A DNA stretch of 32,574 nt from Lachnospiraceae bacterium. Its GTDB lineage: Bacteria; Bacillota; Clostridia; Lachnospirales; Lachnospiraceae. The DNA lies in the NCBI GenBank assembly GCA_030524525.1, contig JAUNGI010000032.1, forward strand, positions 1 through 32,574, given 5' to 3'. Positions 16,280 through 21,935 of the stretch are shown piece by piece. Under the pieces are notes generated by a model. It saw only the letters and a program-made list of their open reading frames with translations. It did no database searches and was not told the origin of the DNA. The number at the start of each line of letters is the position of its first letter. The first letter of the stretch is position 1. The position numbers were made by a program, and so were the translations under genes.

Positions 16280-18361
16280 ATGAAGATAAAGAAACAGCTT
16301 TTGTGCTGGGGCAAAAAGGCGAAGGAACTGTGTTCCAAGGCTCTCGGCTCCCGCTTTCTCGGCTACAGCATCGTTCAGGTCTATCTGATCTCGCTGCTGG
16401 TGAATCTGGTGATCGAAGCGTTTTCCCGCTTTTCCCTTTGGAAAGCCTTCGGCTACCTTTTTACAAGCCCACTGATTTTTTTGGTAAATACCTTTATTAT
16501 TTCGATCGTGATCGCTCCGTCCATTCTGTCGAAGCGCCGCATGTTTTTCTATCTGCTGACCTCCACGCTGTGGCTTGCGGTGGGCGTGGTTGATTTTTTC
16601 CTTCTGCACAACCGGGTCACTCCGTTTAACGGGAATGACCTGCGGCTGATCCAAGACGCGATCGACGTGGCGTTCCACTATTATACGATCTTTCAGCTGA
16701 TCCTGATCGCTCTGCTGATCGTTGCGGTGATCGCGCTCATTATCGTTGCGTTTTTCAAATTCCCCAAGCGGAAGGAGCGCGTCGCCTATAAAAAGATGCT
16801 CCCGCTTTCGCTGGCGCTTATGCTGGGCGGCTTCGGCATTGTCCGGCTCGGCATCGCCACGGGCGTTATGGCGCAGACGTTCCCCAACATCGCGGACGCC
16901 TATCACGACTACGGTCTGCCCTACTGCTTTGTGTGCAGTCTTGTGGATCAGGGGATCGACAAGCCTTCGGACTATTCGCCCGAAAAGGTCGAGGGCGTGA
17001 TCTCGCCCTTGGCGGCTTCTCCTTCGGTTACCGTTCCTGCGGAGGACGACGAAAAGGCGCCCAACGTGATCTTCATTCAGCTCGAATCCTTCTTTGATCC
17101 GAAACGGATCGAGGGGCTCGAATTTGCGGAGGACCCGATCCCGAACTTTACCGCCCTGATGCGGAATTATACGTCCGGCTTCCTGACCGTACCGAGCATC
17201 AGCGCGGGAACCGCGAACACCGAGTTTGAAGTTCTGACCGGCATGAATATGGCGGACTTCGGCACCGGAGAATATCCGTATAAGACGATCCTCAAGACCC
17301 ATACCTGCGAAAGCATTGCCTACAATCTGAAGGCGCTGGGCTATGGCACCCATGCCATCCACAACAACACCGCCACCTTCTACGGCAGAAACGTGGTTTA
17401 CCGCAATTTGGGTTTTGACGATTTCGATTCTGTGGAGCTGATGCAGAATGTCGTAAGAAACGAGCTGAACTGGGCCAAGGATGAGATCCTCTACGGCGAA
17501 ATTATCACGGCGCTCGACTCGACCCCCGGAGCCGATCTGGTGTTTACCGTCTCGGTACAGGGACACGGCAAATACCCGGACGAGGATATCCTCTCCAATA
17601 CGATCGAGCTTGCGGATCTCAACGACGCCTACAGCGACGATACGATCTACGGTCTGAAATACTATATTTCGCAGCTTCATGAGATGGACGCCTTTGTGGG
17701 CCGCCTGATCGAATATCTGGCGGAGCGGGACGAACCGACCGTTCTTGTACTGTACGGCGACCACCTGCCGGGCTTTGATTTCTCGGCGGACGACCTGAAG
17801 GCGGGAGAGCTGCTCCAGACCGAATACGTCATGTGGAGCAACTTCGAAATGGAAGCGGAGCACCGGGATCTGCACGCTTATCAGCTCAGCGCTTACGTAA
17901 TGAATCGACTGAACTATCACGAGGGGCTCGTTTCCAAGCTGCATCAGAAATTTTTTGAGGACGGGGACGAAAGCTATCTTGAAAAGCTGACGCTGCTCTC
18001 CTACGATATGCTTTACGGAGAAATGTACTGCTTTGACGGAGAGAACCCCTACGAGCCGACGGATATCGTTTACGGCTTCCGGGACGTTCTTCTGAACTCC
18101 GTTGAGGTCATCTACGACGAGGACGAAAAGATCGGCTACCTGACCGTGATCGGCGAGAATTTTTCTCCCTACACCGATATCTATATCAACGGAGAGCGCT
18201 ATAAGAACACGATCTATCTGAACGAAAACGAGGTGTTTTTACCGAATGTGAAGCTCTCGGAGGGGGACAGCATCGTTGTCGGAATGCCCATGGGCGATGA
18301 CGGGATGCTGCGGGAATCGCAGCCCCATACCTTCACCGAGGCGGATATTATCAATCCTTAA
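16280..18361 (+). CDS. LtaS-type lipoteichoic acid synthase/phosphoglycerol transferase with C-terminal extension
   Basis: Five membrane helices fill the first 195 residues and a sulfatase-fold domain outside the membrane follows (about 255-520). Metal and catalytic residues can be placed by pattern: E269 in QLESFF, the likely phosphoglycerol-accepting T311 in SAGTANTEFEVL, H429 in VQGHGKY, and D494-H495 in LYGDHLPG. Family enzymes move glycerol-phosphate units from phosphatidylglycerol to a glycolipid or growing polymer. Beyond the usual end lies an extension of about 150 residues, with LTVIGENFSPYTDIYINGERY near 630-650, that looks like an immunoglobulin-type (TIG-like) beta domain. The ATG at 16280 has AGGAG 9 nt upstream. 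It is followed after 18 nt by a small membrane protein gene. Confidence 0.9.
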   Translation: MKIKKQLLCWGKKAKELCSKALGSRFLGYSIVQVYLISLLVNLVIEAFSRFSLWKAFGYLFTSPLIFLVNTFIISIVIAPSILSKRRMFFYLLTSTLWLAVGVVDFFLLHNRVTPFNGNDLRLIQDAIDVAFHYYTIFQLILIALLIVAVIALIIVAFFKFPKRKERVAYKKMLPLSLALMLGGFGIVRLGIATGVMAQTFPNIADAYHDYGLPYCFVCSLVDQGIDKPSDYSPEKVEGVISPLAASPSVTVPAEDDEKAPNVIFIQLESFFDPKRIEGLEFAEDPIPNFTALMRNYTSGFLTVPSISAGTANTEFEVLTGMNMADFGTGEYPYKTILKTHTCESIAYNLKALGYGTHAIHNNTATFYGRNVVYRNLGFDDFDSVELMQNVVRNELNWAKDEILYGEIITALDSTPGADLVFTVSVQGHGKYPDEDILSNTIELADLNDAYSDDTIYGLKYYISQLHEMDAFVGRLIEYLAERDEPTVLVLYGDHLPGFDFSADDLKAGELLQTEYVMWSNFEMEAEHRDLHAYQLSAYVMNRLNYHEGLVSKLHQKFFEDGDESYLEKLTLLSYDMLYGEMYCFDGENPYEPTDIVYGFRDVLLNSVEVIYDEDEKIGYLTVIGENFSPYTDIYINGERYKNTIYLNENEVFLPNVKLSEGDSIVVGMPMGDDGMLRESQPHTFTEADIINP

Positions 18362-18898: not shown

Positions 18899-19915
18899 TC
18901 AACGGTTTTCCGCAATGCGGGCAAGCGCTTCGCTTTCCAAGGCTTCCCCCTCCGATACGCTCACGACAATTTTTCCGTCCGCCCTATGACGATCCATATC
19001 GGAAAGCGCTTTCGCGATATCCGAAAACGAATAGCAGGCTCCCACGGTCGGCTTAATGTGATAATAAGCGAGGAAGGAGAAAATATCGTCCATAATCTGC
19101 TGCGTGGGATAATTTGAGAAAAAACCGGTCAGGTACACGCCGTTCGGGATCTCCTTGATGGGGTCGAAGCCGTTCAGCGCATACGCGCCTCCAAGGATCC
19201 CGGTGTTGCAAACAATTCCCCCTTTTTCTACGCATTTCAAGGTATCGCGGAGTGTTTTCGGACCGACCAGCTCCAAAGCCTTTGTTGCGCTTCCAAGCGT
19301 TCCCGCAAGTGTCCCCGTATCCAGAACCGCCTCGTCCGCATCCTTCAAAAGCGCCAGCTTGCTTTCCCGATGGGTGGTGGCGATCACCTTGCAGCCTGCC
19401 GCCTTCGCAAGCCGAATGGCGGCATAGCCCAGCGCGCAGGTTCCGCCGCGGATCAGCAGGGTATCTTCCTTTTTCAGGCGCAGGCACGCAAAGAGCGAGC
19501 CCCATGCGGTAAAATAGGTTTCCGGAACAGCCGCCGTTTCCGCCCACGAGAGCTCCGTCCGAACGGAAAATACATGGCTTACGGGAAGCAGCGCATATTC
19601 CGCATGGCTCCCGTGAAAGCTGCGCCCCATTCCTCCCATAAGCGCCACTACCTTCTCGCCCTTCCGAAAATGGCTGTCGGACGGATCGACAATTTCTCCC
19701 GCACACTCGATTCCCGGAATGATCGGCTTCCGGATATAATCTGCCTGAATCTCGCTGAGCCGGAGAATCTGCTCCGAATGGTTCAGACCGAATGCCCTTA
19801 CCTTCACAAGCACCCATCCCGGACGAATCCGGGGAACGGGAACCTCCGTCAGCCGTACCTTTTCCGCAGGCGTCGGTTCCGATAAAATAACCGCTTTCAT
19901 GGTTTTCGGAATCAT
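18899..19915 (-). CDS. medium-chain dehydrogenase/reductase (quinone oxidoreductase-like)
   Basis: The 338-residue protein has the two-domain MDR layout: a GroES-like N-terminal part with GLNHSEQILRL and IIPGIECAGEIV (66-76), then a nucleotide-binding Rossmann part whose glycine-rich turn is GGTCALGYAA (157-166). The catalytic-zinc cysteine/histidine pattern of alcohol dehydrogenases is missing, so it should be a zinc-free NAD(P)H-dependent reductase of the quinone oxidoreductase type. The ATG at 19915 overlaps the stop of the radical SAM gene by 4 nt (ATGA), with GGAGGTGA 4 nt upstream inside that gene, indicating tight translational coupling. It could reduce an electrophile or act on the peptide product; the first is the normal role of HxlR-controlled relatives, the second is a guess. 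Confidence 0.9.
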   Translation of the reverse strand: MIPKTMKAVILSEPTPAEKVRLTEVPVPRIRPGWVLVKVRAFGLNHSEQILRLSEIQADYIRKPIIPGIECAGEIVDPSDSHFRKGEKVVALMGGMGRSFHGSHAEYALLPVSHVFSVRTELSWAETAAVPETYFTAWGSLFACLRLKKEDTLLIRGGTCALGYAAIRLAKAAGCKVIATTHRESKLALLKDADEAVLDTGTLAGTLGSATKALELVGPKTLRDTLKCVEKGGIVCNTGILGGAYALNGFDPIKEIPNGVYLTGFFSNYPTQQIMDDIFSFLAYYHIKPTVGACYSFSDIAKALSDMDRHRADGKIVVSVSEGEALESEALARIAENR

Positions 19916-20961
19916 ACGGTCACCTCCGTTTTCACCTCATGCCAGCACTGCGGGTCTGCGGCATAGAAATTGCCGTCCCTGCCGCTTGCCACGGCGGGAC
20001 ATCCCCGGCACCATGCCAGCAGCTCGCACTTTGCGCATTTTTCAAATTTATTGTAATCCCGATAGCTTTCCATCCGGCATACCCAAACGTCTGCCAGACG
20101 GTCCGCAAATACATTGCCGACCTTGCTGTTTTGCACCCGGCGGCAGGCGTAAATATCCCCGGTGGGAAGAATCGTCAGATGGCAGTTTCCGCAGCTGCAG
20201 CCGCCGTAAATCATCCCCTCCTCCACCGTTTCGGGAATTTTGAAAGCGCCGGTTTCATACTCATACAGCGTCCAAAGATGATCCTTCTTGTTGAAGTAGG
20301 TTTCACAGCCCGCAGCTTCATACGCTCGAAACTTCCTGTCGCAGGTTTCCAGCAGCTTGCGGTAGCGCATGGGTTCGATGCCAACGTCTTTTTCTTCGCT
20401 GGTGGGGCAATAGCGCGCAAAGGCAAACACATTCGCCCCCGCCGCAACCGCCGCGTCGATAATGTCCGGCACCTCATCGATGTTGGCGCCGGATACCGTG
20501 GTCATAATCACGCTTCTGATCCCGGCACGGTTGATACAGCCGATCTTCTCTAACGTAACGTCAAAGCTGCCCGGCTTGCGGAACCAGTCGTGGGTTTCCT
20601 TCATACCGTCCAGAGAAAGCTGATATTTCCGACAGCCGTATTCCTTCAGCTTGCGGCAAACCTCATCATTCAAATGAAACGGATTGCCGAGAATCGTAAA
20701 CGGGACGTTATGCCGTTTCAGCAGTCCGAGCAGCTTCCAGAAATCCGGATGAAGGATCGGATCGCCGCCCGTGATATAGAAGTAGGGCAGACGACCGTAC
20801 ACCTCACAGAAATCCAGACAGTTGTAAAACGTGTCCTGCATCTGCTCCCAGTTCATAGCGTCCGGCTTTTTGCAGTTGTTTTCGGAGAAAATATAGCAGT
20901 GCTTACAGCGCTGGTCGCACTCGTCTGTAATGTGCCACTGAAAAGAGAAATACTGTTTCAT
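19912..20961 (-). CDS. radical SAM/SPASM peptide maturase of the ACGX-type system
   Basis: The 349-residue enzyme has the radical SAM cysteines C15, C19 and C22 (CDQRCKHC), the GGDP motif at 65-68 and SLDG at 116-119. Its C-terminal SPASM region carries many cysteines: C255, C257, C260, C273, C309, C312, C318, C321 and C339. SPASM enzymes use auxiliary iron-sulfur clusters to modify ribosomal peptides, often forming thioether or carbon-carbon bonds. I recall a protein family described as radical SAM/SPASM, ACGX system; this gene fits by context with the ACGX peptide upstream. The ATG at 20961 is preferred (GAGG 9 nt upstream) over one 21 nt earlier that lacks a ribosome-binding site. It is followed by the coupled oxidoreductase. 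Confidence 0.9.
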   Translation of the reverse strand: MKQYFSFQWHITDECDQRCKHCYIFSENNCKKPDAMNWEQMQDTFYNCLDFCEVYGRLPYFYITGGDPILHPDFWKLLGLLKRHNVPFTILGNPFHLNDEVCRKLKEYGCRKYQLSLDGMKETHDWFRKPGSFDVTLEKIGCINRAGIRSVIMTTVSGANIDEVPDIIDAAVAAGANVFAFARYCPTSEEKDVGIEPMRYRKLLETCDRKFRAYEAAGCETYFNKKDHLWTLYEYETGAFKIPETVEEGMIYGGCSCGNCHLTILPTGDIYACRRVQNSKVGNVFADRLADVWVCRMESYRDYNKFEKCAKCELLAWCRGCPAVASGRDGNFYAADPQCWHEVKTEVTV

Positions 20962-21049
20962 GTTCCTTGACCTCGCTTTCATCAGGACTTGCCGAAGCGA
21001 GCCCTGCGCATCGAATATAAAATCGGATCAACCGAGCGACATTGCAAAC

Positions 21050-21080
21050 GTTCCCTGCGGGAGCATCCCCCGCGGGGAAC
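21050..21080 (-). terminator. hairpin between peptide gene and maturase (attenuator or processing site)
   Basis: On the minus strand arms GTTCCCCGCGGG and CCCGCAGGGAAC pair at 11 of 12 positions around a short loop, about 22 nt after the peptide stop codon. Only a short GTTTG follows instead of a long T-run, so partial termination or RNA end protection is more likely than full termination. This would give more peptide than enzyme mRNA. Confidence 0.6.
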
Positions 21081-21102
21081 GAAATCAGGGGGAGCGGGCA
21101 AT

Positions 21103-21243
21103 TTACTTGTCGCTCGCTCCGCAGGCGGAACCACAAGCGGCAGGGGTCTCCTCCGGCTTGTCGCCCGCTCCGCAGGCAGTCGCGCTGACAGCAGAAGCCT
21201 CCTCCATTTTCTTGCTCCAACCAAAGAGATTTGAAAGTGCCAT
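21103..21243 (-). CDS. ACGX-repeat RiPP precursor peptide (46 aa)
   Basis: The 46-residue peptide starts with a leader-like MALSNLFGWSKKMEEASAVS and ends with a small-residue, cysteine-containing core. ACGX tetrapeptides are at 23-26, 36-39 and 40-43, with cysteines C24, C37 and C41. Two heptads, ACGAGDK (23-29) and ACGASDK (40-46), are nearly identical in protein and at 20 of 21 bases. GGAGGG lies 8 nt before the ATG. The gene is short but is supported by the ribosome-binding site, its own promoter, the radical SAM/SPASM gene downstream and the agreement with the ACGX pattern. It is the likely substrate of that enzyme. The cysteines could become thioether donors; no peptidase or exporter gene is present nearby, so the mature product may stay attached to its leader or in the cell. 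Confidence 0.88.
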   Translation of the reverse strand: MALSNLFGWSKKMEEASAVSATACGAGDKPEETPAACGSACGASDK

Positions 21244-21297
21244 AAATTTGTCCCTCCATTTTTGTATTCAGAGTGCTGTTTGCTCTCTGTACTTATC

Positions 21298-21335
21298 ATT
21301 TTACGGTCTTTTTTCTTTCCCACAAGTACGCACTT
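21298..21335 (-). promoter_or_regulatory. promoter of the peptide-maturase-oxidoreductase operon with possible operator
   Basis: On the minus strand TTGTGG (21320-21325) and TAAAAT (21298-21303) are spaced by 16 nt, about 50 nt before the peptide start. The inverted repeat AAGT-N4-ACTT (21324-21335) overlaps the -35 box and would suit a dimeric repressor such as the divergent HxlR protein. Confidence 0.55.
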
Positions 21336-21347
21336 TTTTATAACCCG

Positions 21348-21370
21348 GTCACCTTTTTGTTACCTTTTTG
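21348..21370. repeat. tandem 12-mers between the divergent promoters, candidate HxlR site
   Basis: GTCACCTTTTTG (21348-21359) and GTTACCTTTTTG (21359-21370) are direct repeats spaced 11 bp, about one helical turn. They lie upstream of the peptide promoter and downstream of the HxlR promoter's divergent start region. The spacing fits binding of a regulator to one face of the DNA. Confidence 0.5.
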
Positions 21371-21419
21371 CCGTTGCCGGTTTTTCCGGAGATATTTTTT
21401 CAGACGGAGGCAGAACCTA

Positions 21420-21448
21420 TTGAAAATCCCGGCTCCCTGCATTACAAT
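21420..21448 (+). promoter_or_regulatory. promoter of the hxlR-like gene
   Basis: TTGAAA (21420-21425) and TACAAT (21443-21448) are separated by exactly 17 nt, near-consensus for sigma-A, about 50 nt before the start codon. Confidence 0.7.
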
Positions 21449-21502
21449 CAGGGGGTAGGATCAAATTCAGATATGAAATTCCATAGGAGGGAGGAATGAC
21501 GG

Positions 21503-21829
21503 ATGGTATCAAAAGAGGAATTACCCGCCTGCCCTGTGGCGACAACGGTACAGCTGATCGGAAGCAAATGGAAATTGCTGATTATGCGCAATCTGCTTGT
21601 GCGACCGTGGAGATTTAATGAATTAAAAAAGGATCTGGAGGGAATCAGCCAGAAGGTCCTGACGGACAGCCTGCGCTCCATGGAGGAAGACGGTATTATT
21701 ACCCGCACGGTTTTTCCGGAGGTACCGCCAAGAGTGGAATACGCGTTAAGCGAATTGGGAGAGTCCATGCGCCCAATTATAGGCGCTATGGAACAGTGGG
21801 GAATCTCTTATAAGAGCCAAAGTAAATAA
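21503..21829 (+). CDS. HxlR-family winged-helix regulator
   Basis: The 108-residue protein has the HxlR pattern: an N-terminal CPV with C10, then TVQLIGSKWKLLIMRNLL, RFNELKKDLEGISQKVLTDSLRSMEEDGIITR and RVEYALSELGESMRPII. The N-terminal cysteine at this place is the redox-reactive residue in YodB- and HypR-type members, which sense quinones, aldehydes or disulfide stress. AGGAGGGAGG ends 8 nt before the ATG at 21503; another ATG 7 nt upstream is in a different frame. It is transcribed away from the peptide operon, the usual place for a local regulator. Whether it represses or activates cannot be told from the sequence. Confidence 0.92.
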   Translation: MVSKEELPACPVATTVQLIGSKWKLLIMRNLLVRPWRFNELKKDLEGISQKVLTDSLRSMEEDGIITRTVFPEVPPRVEYALSELGESMRPIIGAMEQWGISYKSQSK

Positions 21830-21935
21830 GACCGCATTTCGCCTCGGACAATGCGGTCTTATGTAAGTTGCGTTTTGCCGCAGACAATGCGGTCTTATGT
21901 AAGTTGCGTTTTACCGCAGGCAATGCGATCTTAAG
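21830..21935. repeat. 36-bp tandem repeats with hairpins between convergent genes
   Basis: Three units with an exact 36-bp period (21834-21869, 21870-21905 and a shorter third) follow the hxlR-like stop codon. Each contains AATGCGGTCTT or AATGCGATCTT; the first forms a hairpin GACCGCATT/AATGCGGTC starting one base after the stop. The block separates the convergent hxlR-like and phosphoesterase genes and may work as a bidirectional terminator. Confidence 0.8.

Follow-up and report, generated by a model that had tools for sequence, protein, structure and literature searches.

The locus at positions 18899 to 21829 of a 32,574-nt stretch of DNA from a Lachnospiraceae bacterium (contig JAUNGI010000032.1 of assembly GCA_030524525.1; the whole stretch is referred to below as the window) encodes a 46-residue peptide with three ACGX tetrapeptides, a radical S-adenosylmethionine (SAM)/SPASM maturase, a reductase of the medium-chain dehydrogenase/reductase (MDR) family, and a divergently transcribed HxlR-type regulator. 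To our knowledge, no function is known for the ACGX peptide and its maturase, which raises the question of what such a pair does in the cell. On balance, the locus appears to encode the peptide component of a thiol/electrophile-stress module that has two parts; the peptide would be a cytoplasmic redox or electrophile sink, switched on together with a Zn-type macrodomain (Zn-macro) and the sirtuin SirTM. The regulon is probably split, with one of its halves in the window, because an operator model finds two sites in this genome, one ahead of the ACGX peptide and the other ahead of a macrodomain/SirTM gene pair. The features of the locus are as follows.

21503-21829, plus strand: hxlR, HxlR/DUF24-type regulator of 108 residues with a single cysteine, Cys10 (ACPV); PF01638, 1.1e-30
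21322-21366, minus strand: putative HxlR operator/promoter element; site model from 40 other loci, E = 1.4e-12
21103-21243, minus strand: ACGX precursor peptide of 46 residues; TIGR04341, 49.3 bits (cut-off, 28)
21049-21081, minus strand: stem-loop separating the peptide gene from the maturase gene; best local fold, -26.3 kcal/mol
19912-20982, minus strand: radical SAM/SPASM maturase of the ACGX system; TIGR04340, 602 bits (cut-off, 400)
18899-19915, minus strand: MDR-family (quinone-oxidoreductase-like) reductase; PF08240/PF00107

The first-pass annotation, made from the sequence alone, had described the peptide with its three ACGX units, a SPASM enzyme with twelve motif cysteines, and a divergent HxlR gene, all of which are confirmed by the family models and alignments; the ATG of the MDR gene indeed overlaps the TGA of the maturase gene as ATGA. 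Its assignment of the pair to the ACGX system is borne out by both NCBIfam cut-offs. Chance does not plausibly account for the locus, whose genes exceed the cut-offs of two separate models and whose arrangement repeats in other genomes.

An operator found at two sites in the genome

In the window, a GTAAC-N5-GTGAC repeat is followed by TTATAAAAAAGTGCGTACTT and a TAAAAT-like -10 element. Related loci were represented by the best 80 of 442 relatives among named genomes, with 78 to 91% identity to the maturase (best segment). The peptide could be extracted from 68 of these, the other 12 having a start that is absent, cut off, or unmatched by the search pattern. The GTGCGTACTT element, defined from these loci alone and apart from the published DUF24 boxes, is found with at most one mismatch within 200 nt 5' of the peptide gene in 63 of the 68 loci (0.15% of shuffles), and a GTNAC-N3-6-GTNMC element lies in the same interval in 54. 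Of the five loci without GTGCGTACTT (L015, L031, L038, L055, and L056), the last four encode an Rrf2-type regulator and have neither HxlR nor its operator; thus, the regulator and the operator have been swapped together. The Rrf2-type regulator scores highest against the redox-sensing HypR (57 bits, below 180). Where the HxlR operator would stand, these four loci contain a different inverted repeat (GTTGTAAC...GTTACAAC). A palindrome, AAGTN4ACTT, was dropped as a candidate operator, being met in 24 of the 68 loci.

The operator model was built from 40 sites, none from the window genome, that remained from the 63 loci after near-duplicates and length misfits had been removed. At E ≤ 0.1, it finds two sites in the 2.65-Mb window genome, one ahead of the ACGX peptide (21322-21366; E = 1.4e-12) and the other ahead of a macrodomain/SirTM pair on contig C60 (33905-33947; E = 1.7e-4), with E-values that are rough for this tool. 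A scan of the whole genome with a 29-mer pattern (window positions 21324-21352), allowing three mismatches, returns the same two sites and no reversed controls. The model finds no site in the genus-mates G018 and G005, which have neither an ACGX match above the cut-off nor SirTM.

Neither SirTM nor Zn-macro is encoded in the window. On the minus strand of C60, the SirTM gene (32181-33023) adjoins the macrodomain gene (33040-33810). The SirTM sequence includes TQGDYG, with QG at the HG position, and the macrodomain has a GCFCPNHGCIDNAIH loop. The best PDB match of this SirTM is 5a3a (3.1e-73), a similarity from which ADP-ribosyltransferase activity is predicted, and those of the macrodomain are 8rsi, 5kiv, and 8rsl (about 1e-77). 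On C60, 300 nt remain between the macrodomain match and the contig end on its upstream side, and the window is itself a complete contig, C62; the two contigs could therefore be adjacent in the genome.

Elsewhere, the operator precedes SirTM in 9 of 17 ACGX-free SirTM genomes examined, which were drawn from the best-scoring of 107 (G298 was left out); among the eight without it, three carry an Rrf2-type gene near SirTM. In other genomes it is found ahead of a PPOX gene, a nitroreductase gene, and a DJ-1-like/nitroreductase pair (named by eye). This distribution looks like that of a stress regulon with ACGX as one of its members. An ACGX-free genome of the same genus (G019) contains hxlR, the same operator, and a macrodomain/SirTM pair at L152:8333-10115, with an open reading frame (ORF) of ~154 codons in between.

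Recurrent linkage of ACGX loci with SirTM

In the 56 loci with at least 3,800 nt past the maturase, to which downstream counts refer unless stated otherwise, a SirTM (Sir2) gene is found downstream on the maturase strand in 36 and a macrodomain gene in 22 (tblastn with one query, which divergent members may escape). For 18 of the 20 remaining loci, SirTM is encoded elsewhere in the genome, namely in 5 of 5 in one set (L004, L008, L014, L027, and L028) and 13 of 15 in a second. Outside the 56 loci, it is found in the genomes of L039 and L018 and not in that of L012. All 32 full-length ORFs of ACGX-linked SirTMs have QG (TQGDYG) for the catalytic HG, a mark of class-M sirtuins according to passages of PMC4518038. 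The 23 extracted macrodomain ORFs share a C-[FY]-x-P-x-H-x-C-[IV]-D-N loop, taken for a zinc loop, and the L005 macrodomain passes the protein-ADP-ribose hydrolase model (357 versus 272 bits).

A sample of 299 genomes of the family, with thresholds of E ≤ 1e-100 for ACGX and E ≤ 1e-60 for SirTM, includes 37 genomes with ACGX (36 over the curated cut-off), 139 with SirTM, and 32 with both (odds ratio, 9.3; Fisher p = 1.0e-7, kinship ignored). SirTM lies within 5 kb on the same contig in 21 of the 37 ACGX genomes and not in 11. Membership in the genus alone proves nothing, since a SirTM match is found in 3 of its 22 genomes, one of them partial.

In a tree of 76 SirTMs, built by a quick method that leaves 27 of its 73 inner branches open, the ACGX-linked label (32 SirTMs) changes 16 times, at least 5 of these changes being forced by starred branches; the mean for shuffled labels is 24.7. 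The link has therefore been gained or lost repeatedly, and such joining and parting speaks for a working relation between ACGX and SirTM. Ten of the 11 rows in the starred set that contains the SirTM of the window genome have no cis link to ACGX, this SirTM being one of the ten. A divergent group on a branch with a support of 100 (L263 to L266; E about 1e-101 to 1e-105) comes from four ACGX genomes (G334, G333, G332, and G335, respectively) and has no operator upstream.

Several observations weigh against a dedicated partnership. Of the named loci examined, three (L012, L032, and L069) gave no SirTM match, and neither did 5 of the 37 ACGX genomes; G238 and G249 are 97 to 98% complete. Conversely, SirTM is carried by 107 of the 262 ACGX-free genomes. 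In the tree, the ACGX-linked SirTMs form no separate clade and intermix with those of ACGX-free genomes, which argues against an enzyme reserved for ACGX. In ACGX genomes whose SirTM is unlinked (on a different contig or distant), the operator precedes SirTM in just 9 of 21, counting sites on the same strand up to 2.6 kb upstream (63 nt in the case of G025). The model search of the window genome scored just 150 of 665 first-look candidates, and the 29-mer for the exhaustive scan was built from the two sites that it recovered. No ACGX peptide is found at L004 and L054. A common operator is evidence for common timing, not for a common reaction; modification of the peptide, its chemistry, and the action of SirTM on it are proposals that go beyond the sequence evidence.

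The peptide and its maturase

The window peptide consists of a leader (MALSNLFGW), the units ACGA, ACGS, and ACGA, and one CX3C pair, with Asp-Lys behind each ACGX block. Among 69 peptides (68 loci and the window), Trp9 and the CX3C pair are invariant, the number of ACGX units ranges from 2 to 15, and Asp is the second residue past the block in 245 of 254 blocks. The core is hydrophilic and rich in Ala, Gly, Cys, and Lys, with 0.1% His. Where the peptide and maturase genes are 30 to 250 nt apart, the hairpin z-score of the gap is below -2 in 59 of 63 sequences, including that of the window (10 mononucleotide shuffles per sequence).

The maturase aligns to TIGR04340 across all 341 model positions and matches PF04055 and PF13186. 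It has 22 cysteines, twelve of them at motif positions (22, 26, and 29, forming CX3CX2C; 262, 264, 267, 280, 316, 319, 325, 328, and 346), and each of the twelve is conserved in 71 or 72 of 72 aligned sequences, that of the window included. Its start may be at 20961 (MKQYF..., behind AGGTCAAGGA) instead of 20982. The best NCBIfam match besides ACGX is TIGR04082, an SbtM-type thio(seleno)oxazole maturase model, at 155 bits over residues 10 to 336, under its cut-off of 350. Because of this match, the products formed from the cysteines may be heterocycles rather than thioethers. The nearest PDB sequences are SkfB (6efn; 2e-12) and then 5wgg (7.5e-11), which we take to be CteB.

Gene neighborhoods of related loci

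Judging by source titles, the 80 loci come mostly from Lachnospiraceae, Oscillospiraceae, and other Clostridia and largely from metagenome-assembled genomes, one of which is labeled Bacteroides. Within the genus of the window, the ACGX cut-off is passed in 1 of 22 genomes, a patchy distribution that suggests transfer. In an empty-site comparison for a mobile cassette, none of the other 21 genomes of the genus matched the right-hand neighbor of the locus at E ≤ 1e-60, so no insertion boundaries emerged.

An ACG-repeat peptide is encoded upstream of the maturase in 67 of the 69 loci with at least 1,500 nt upstream (68 matches scored, with that at L054 discounted by eye), and a divergent hxlR is present in 54 of the 64 loci with at least 2,500 nt upstream. 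The recurrence predicted by the first-pass annotation thus holds for the peptide and the regulator, and maturases without an adjacent ACGX peptide, named there as a possible refutation, amount to two exceptions among the 69, which is no refutation. For the MDR gene, the prediction holds in 18 of the 56 loci; most (37) have a nitroreductase-type gene instead. One locus, with an MDR gene and a ferredoxin-nitroreductase fusion, is in both counts, and no locus combines MDR with the 198-residue nitroreductase. Altogether, 54 loci have one or the other type, and the two with neither are L017 and L041, the latter with an upstream MDR gene. The MDR is therefore one of two alternatives in this slot. 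In all 80 loci, regardless of length, the first recognized gene 3' of the maturase encodes a nitroreductase in 47, an MDR in 28, and a PNPOx flavin/ferredoxin protein in 5. A 205-residue PNPOx/4Fe-4S protein, perhaps the electron carrier of the module, is encoded downstream in 37 of the 56 loci; at L005:1878-2489, a PNPOx-like flavin domain is fused to a two-cluster ferredoxin.

Among neighbor clusters found in at least 5 of the 80 loci (named by eye and by family scans), no exporter, protease, or immunity gene was seen, in line with the first-pass description of the window, and no metal transporter or metal-type regulator. These recurrent clusters likewise include no visible GcvH-L or LplA2; for the window genome's own pair, the contig extends just 300 nt beyond the macrodomain on the upstream side. 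When 67 of the 70 unassigned downstream ORFs in SirTM-bearing loci were scanned against Pfam, the matches listed included DUF1848 (four members), one rubrerythrin, and one glutathione peroxidase; GcvH, lipoyl, and lipoate-ligase families are absent from the 25 of 48 families listed, each of the remaining 23 matching a single ORF. The rubrerythrin (L010:8578-9240) and the glutathione peroxidase (L068:8483-9031), matched by their first residues, both adjoin SirTM in ACGX loci.

The four genes of the window had been proposed to form one system. Their linkage is real; as a unit they are too few, with Zn-macro and SirTM on C60 as likely partners and the MDR replaceable.

Comparison with known systems

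The model entries of the ACGX system (TIGR04340 and TIGR04341), both matched above the cut-off by the window genes, mention neither SirTM/Zn-macro nor an HxlR operator nor the alternation of MDR and nitroreductase. No paper naming the ACGX system, and none combining SirTM with a radical SAM enzyme, was found in the open literature, most subscription papers being outside the search.

Passages of PMC4518038 and PMC11490716 tie the SirTM/Zn-macro pair to oxidative stress and describe an extended SirTM operon of Staphylococcus and Streptococcus that encodes GcvH-L, LplA2, the macrodomain, SirTM, OYE, and LLM. There, SirTM ADP-ribosylates GcvH-L, far better after lipoylation, the Zn-macrodomain takes the group off, and OYE binds lipoyl-GcvH-L; the authors propose a redox-scavenging role for the lipoyl group, held in check by ADP-ribosylation. 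The targets of SirTM/Zn-macro pairs outside the lipoyl operon are described as open in PMC11490716. ACGX loci share with this operon a QG class-M sirtuin, a Zn-type macrodomain, oxidoreductases, and a candidate small thiol-bearing carrier. They differ in having a radical SAM enzyme and a Cys-rich peptide where LplA2 and GcvH-L stand, and in being controlled by HxlR or Rrf2; in the window genome, the pair is moreover on another contig.

For the DUF24 regulators YodB, CatR, and HypR of Bacillus subtilis, passages of PMC6943732 report an N-terminal cysteine that senses quinones, HOCl, and diamide, and they count nitroreductase among DUF24 regulon members. The window HxlR resembles these regulators in its N-terminal cysteine, and nitroreductases or other oxidoreductases are controlled in both cases, whereas the operator described here precedes genes for a ribosomally synthesized and posttranslationally modified peptide (RiPP) and an ADP-ribosylation pair. 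Cys10 is conserved in 57 of 57 HxlR sequences, that of the window included, which fits the thiol control assumed by the first-pass annotation.

Proposed mechanism

By analogy with its family, HxlR would repress the operon until an oxidant or electrophile reacts with its single cysteine. The ACGX peptide would then be made, probably in excess over the maturase, since a stem-loop divides the two genes, and the radical SAM/SPASM enzyme would modify the ACGX cysteines. Once mature, the peptide would remain in the cytoplasm and act as a soluble sink, either redox-active or electrophile-trapping. An NAD(P)H reductase would serve it: the MDR in this locus, and in others a nitroreductase with the flavin/ferredoxin protein. 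With a similar operator ahead of the Zn-macro/SirTM pair on C60, expression of the peptide would be induced at the same time as reversible protein ADP-ribosylation.

The modified peptide is itself the leading candidate for a substrate or partner of SirTM/Zn-macro, because of the analogy with lipoyl-GcvH-L in the published operon, and ADP-ribosylation is a possible control of the peptide, perhaps at the Asp two residues past the ACGX block. The wider proposition is that ACGX is the missing substrate of many orphan SirTM/Zn-macro pairs, a RiPP dithiol/electrophile sink that replaces the lipoyl carrier and is switched by ADP-ribosylation; we regard it as speculative and rather doubtful. If true, this would be the first ADP-ribosylation-regulated RiPP known to us. 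Through the linkage described here, the named, unexplained ACGX family gains a setting (electrophile/redox stress in Clostridia) and co-regulated partners, and the question of what SirTM/Zn-macro pairs modify outside the lipoyl operon gains a candidate answer that can be tested with a 46-residue peptide and three enzymes.

Alternative explanations

The strongest competitor, which partly overlaps the other readings and to which we assign an appreciable probability short of an even chance, is that HxlR governs a general stress regulon in which ACGX and SirTM/macro each deal with different damage, independently of one another. The operator sites ahead of PPOX, nitroreductase, and DJ-1-like/nitroreductase genes agree with it, as do those ahead of SirTM in 9 of the 17 ACGX-free genomes; it fits less well with a SirTM gene that follows the ACGX maturase gene on one strand in 36 of 56 loci, the two having been joined or parted repeatedly. 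The same spread of operator sites over nitroreductase, PPOX, DJ-1-like, and macro/SirTM genes argues against a metallophore, in which the radical SAM enzyme would turn ACGX cysteines into metal-binding groups such as thiooxazoles and the peptide would buffer copper or another metal. The possible heterocycles keep this idea alive, TIGR04082 being the maturase's best match after ACGX, and so do the CX3C pairs in every peptide and the precedent of bufferins, MNIO-made peptides that chelate excess copper according to PMC12452194. Given the near-absence of His from the core and the lack of metal transporters and metal-type regulators among the recurrent neighbors, we consider a metallophore improbable.

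The SPASM enzymes that make pyrroloquinoline quinone and mycofactocin offer a model for a peptide-derived redox cofactor, a small electron carrier for the MDR, the nitroreductase, or the ferredoxin-flavoprotein, and the near-constant presence of such genes downstream (54 and 37 of 56 loci, as above) is consistent with it. Peptides with 2 to 15 ACGX units and no recurrent protease are unlike the precursor of a one-molecule cofactor, however, and MDR and nitroreductase fill the same slot with different folds, which makes a cofactor less probable still. A secreted sactipeptide or ranthipeptide bacteriocin is suggested by the nearest PDB sequences, which belong to maturases of that kind; with a hydrophilic core, a stress-type regulator with a conserved cysteine, and recurrent neighbors in which no exporter, protease, or immunity gene was seen, it is very unlikely. 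The cytoplasmic sink co-switched with Zn-macro/SirTM is preferred here.

Other features of the window

In NCBIfam, the nearest model to the MDR is the PIG3 quinone reductase (156 bits, under its cut-off of 297), and the nearest to HxlR is RrpB (115 bits; cut-off, 175). Promoter and terminator scans of the locus gave counts under the shuffle means (1 versus 2.2 and 1 versus 3.9, respectively). A sulfatase-fold membrane protein encoded at 16280-18361 (PF00884; 6.9e-38) bears no relation to the ACGX finding, and its resemblance to lipoteichoic acid synthase is weak (NF053595; 31 versus 970 bits). Between the 3' side of hxlR and a metallophosphoesterase gene, positions 21847-21933 contain a 36-bp tandem repeat in 2.4 copies with 94% matches.

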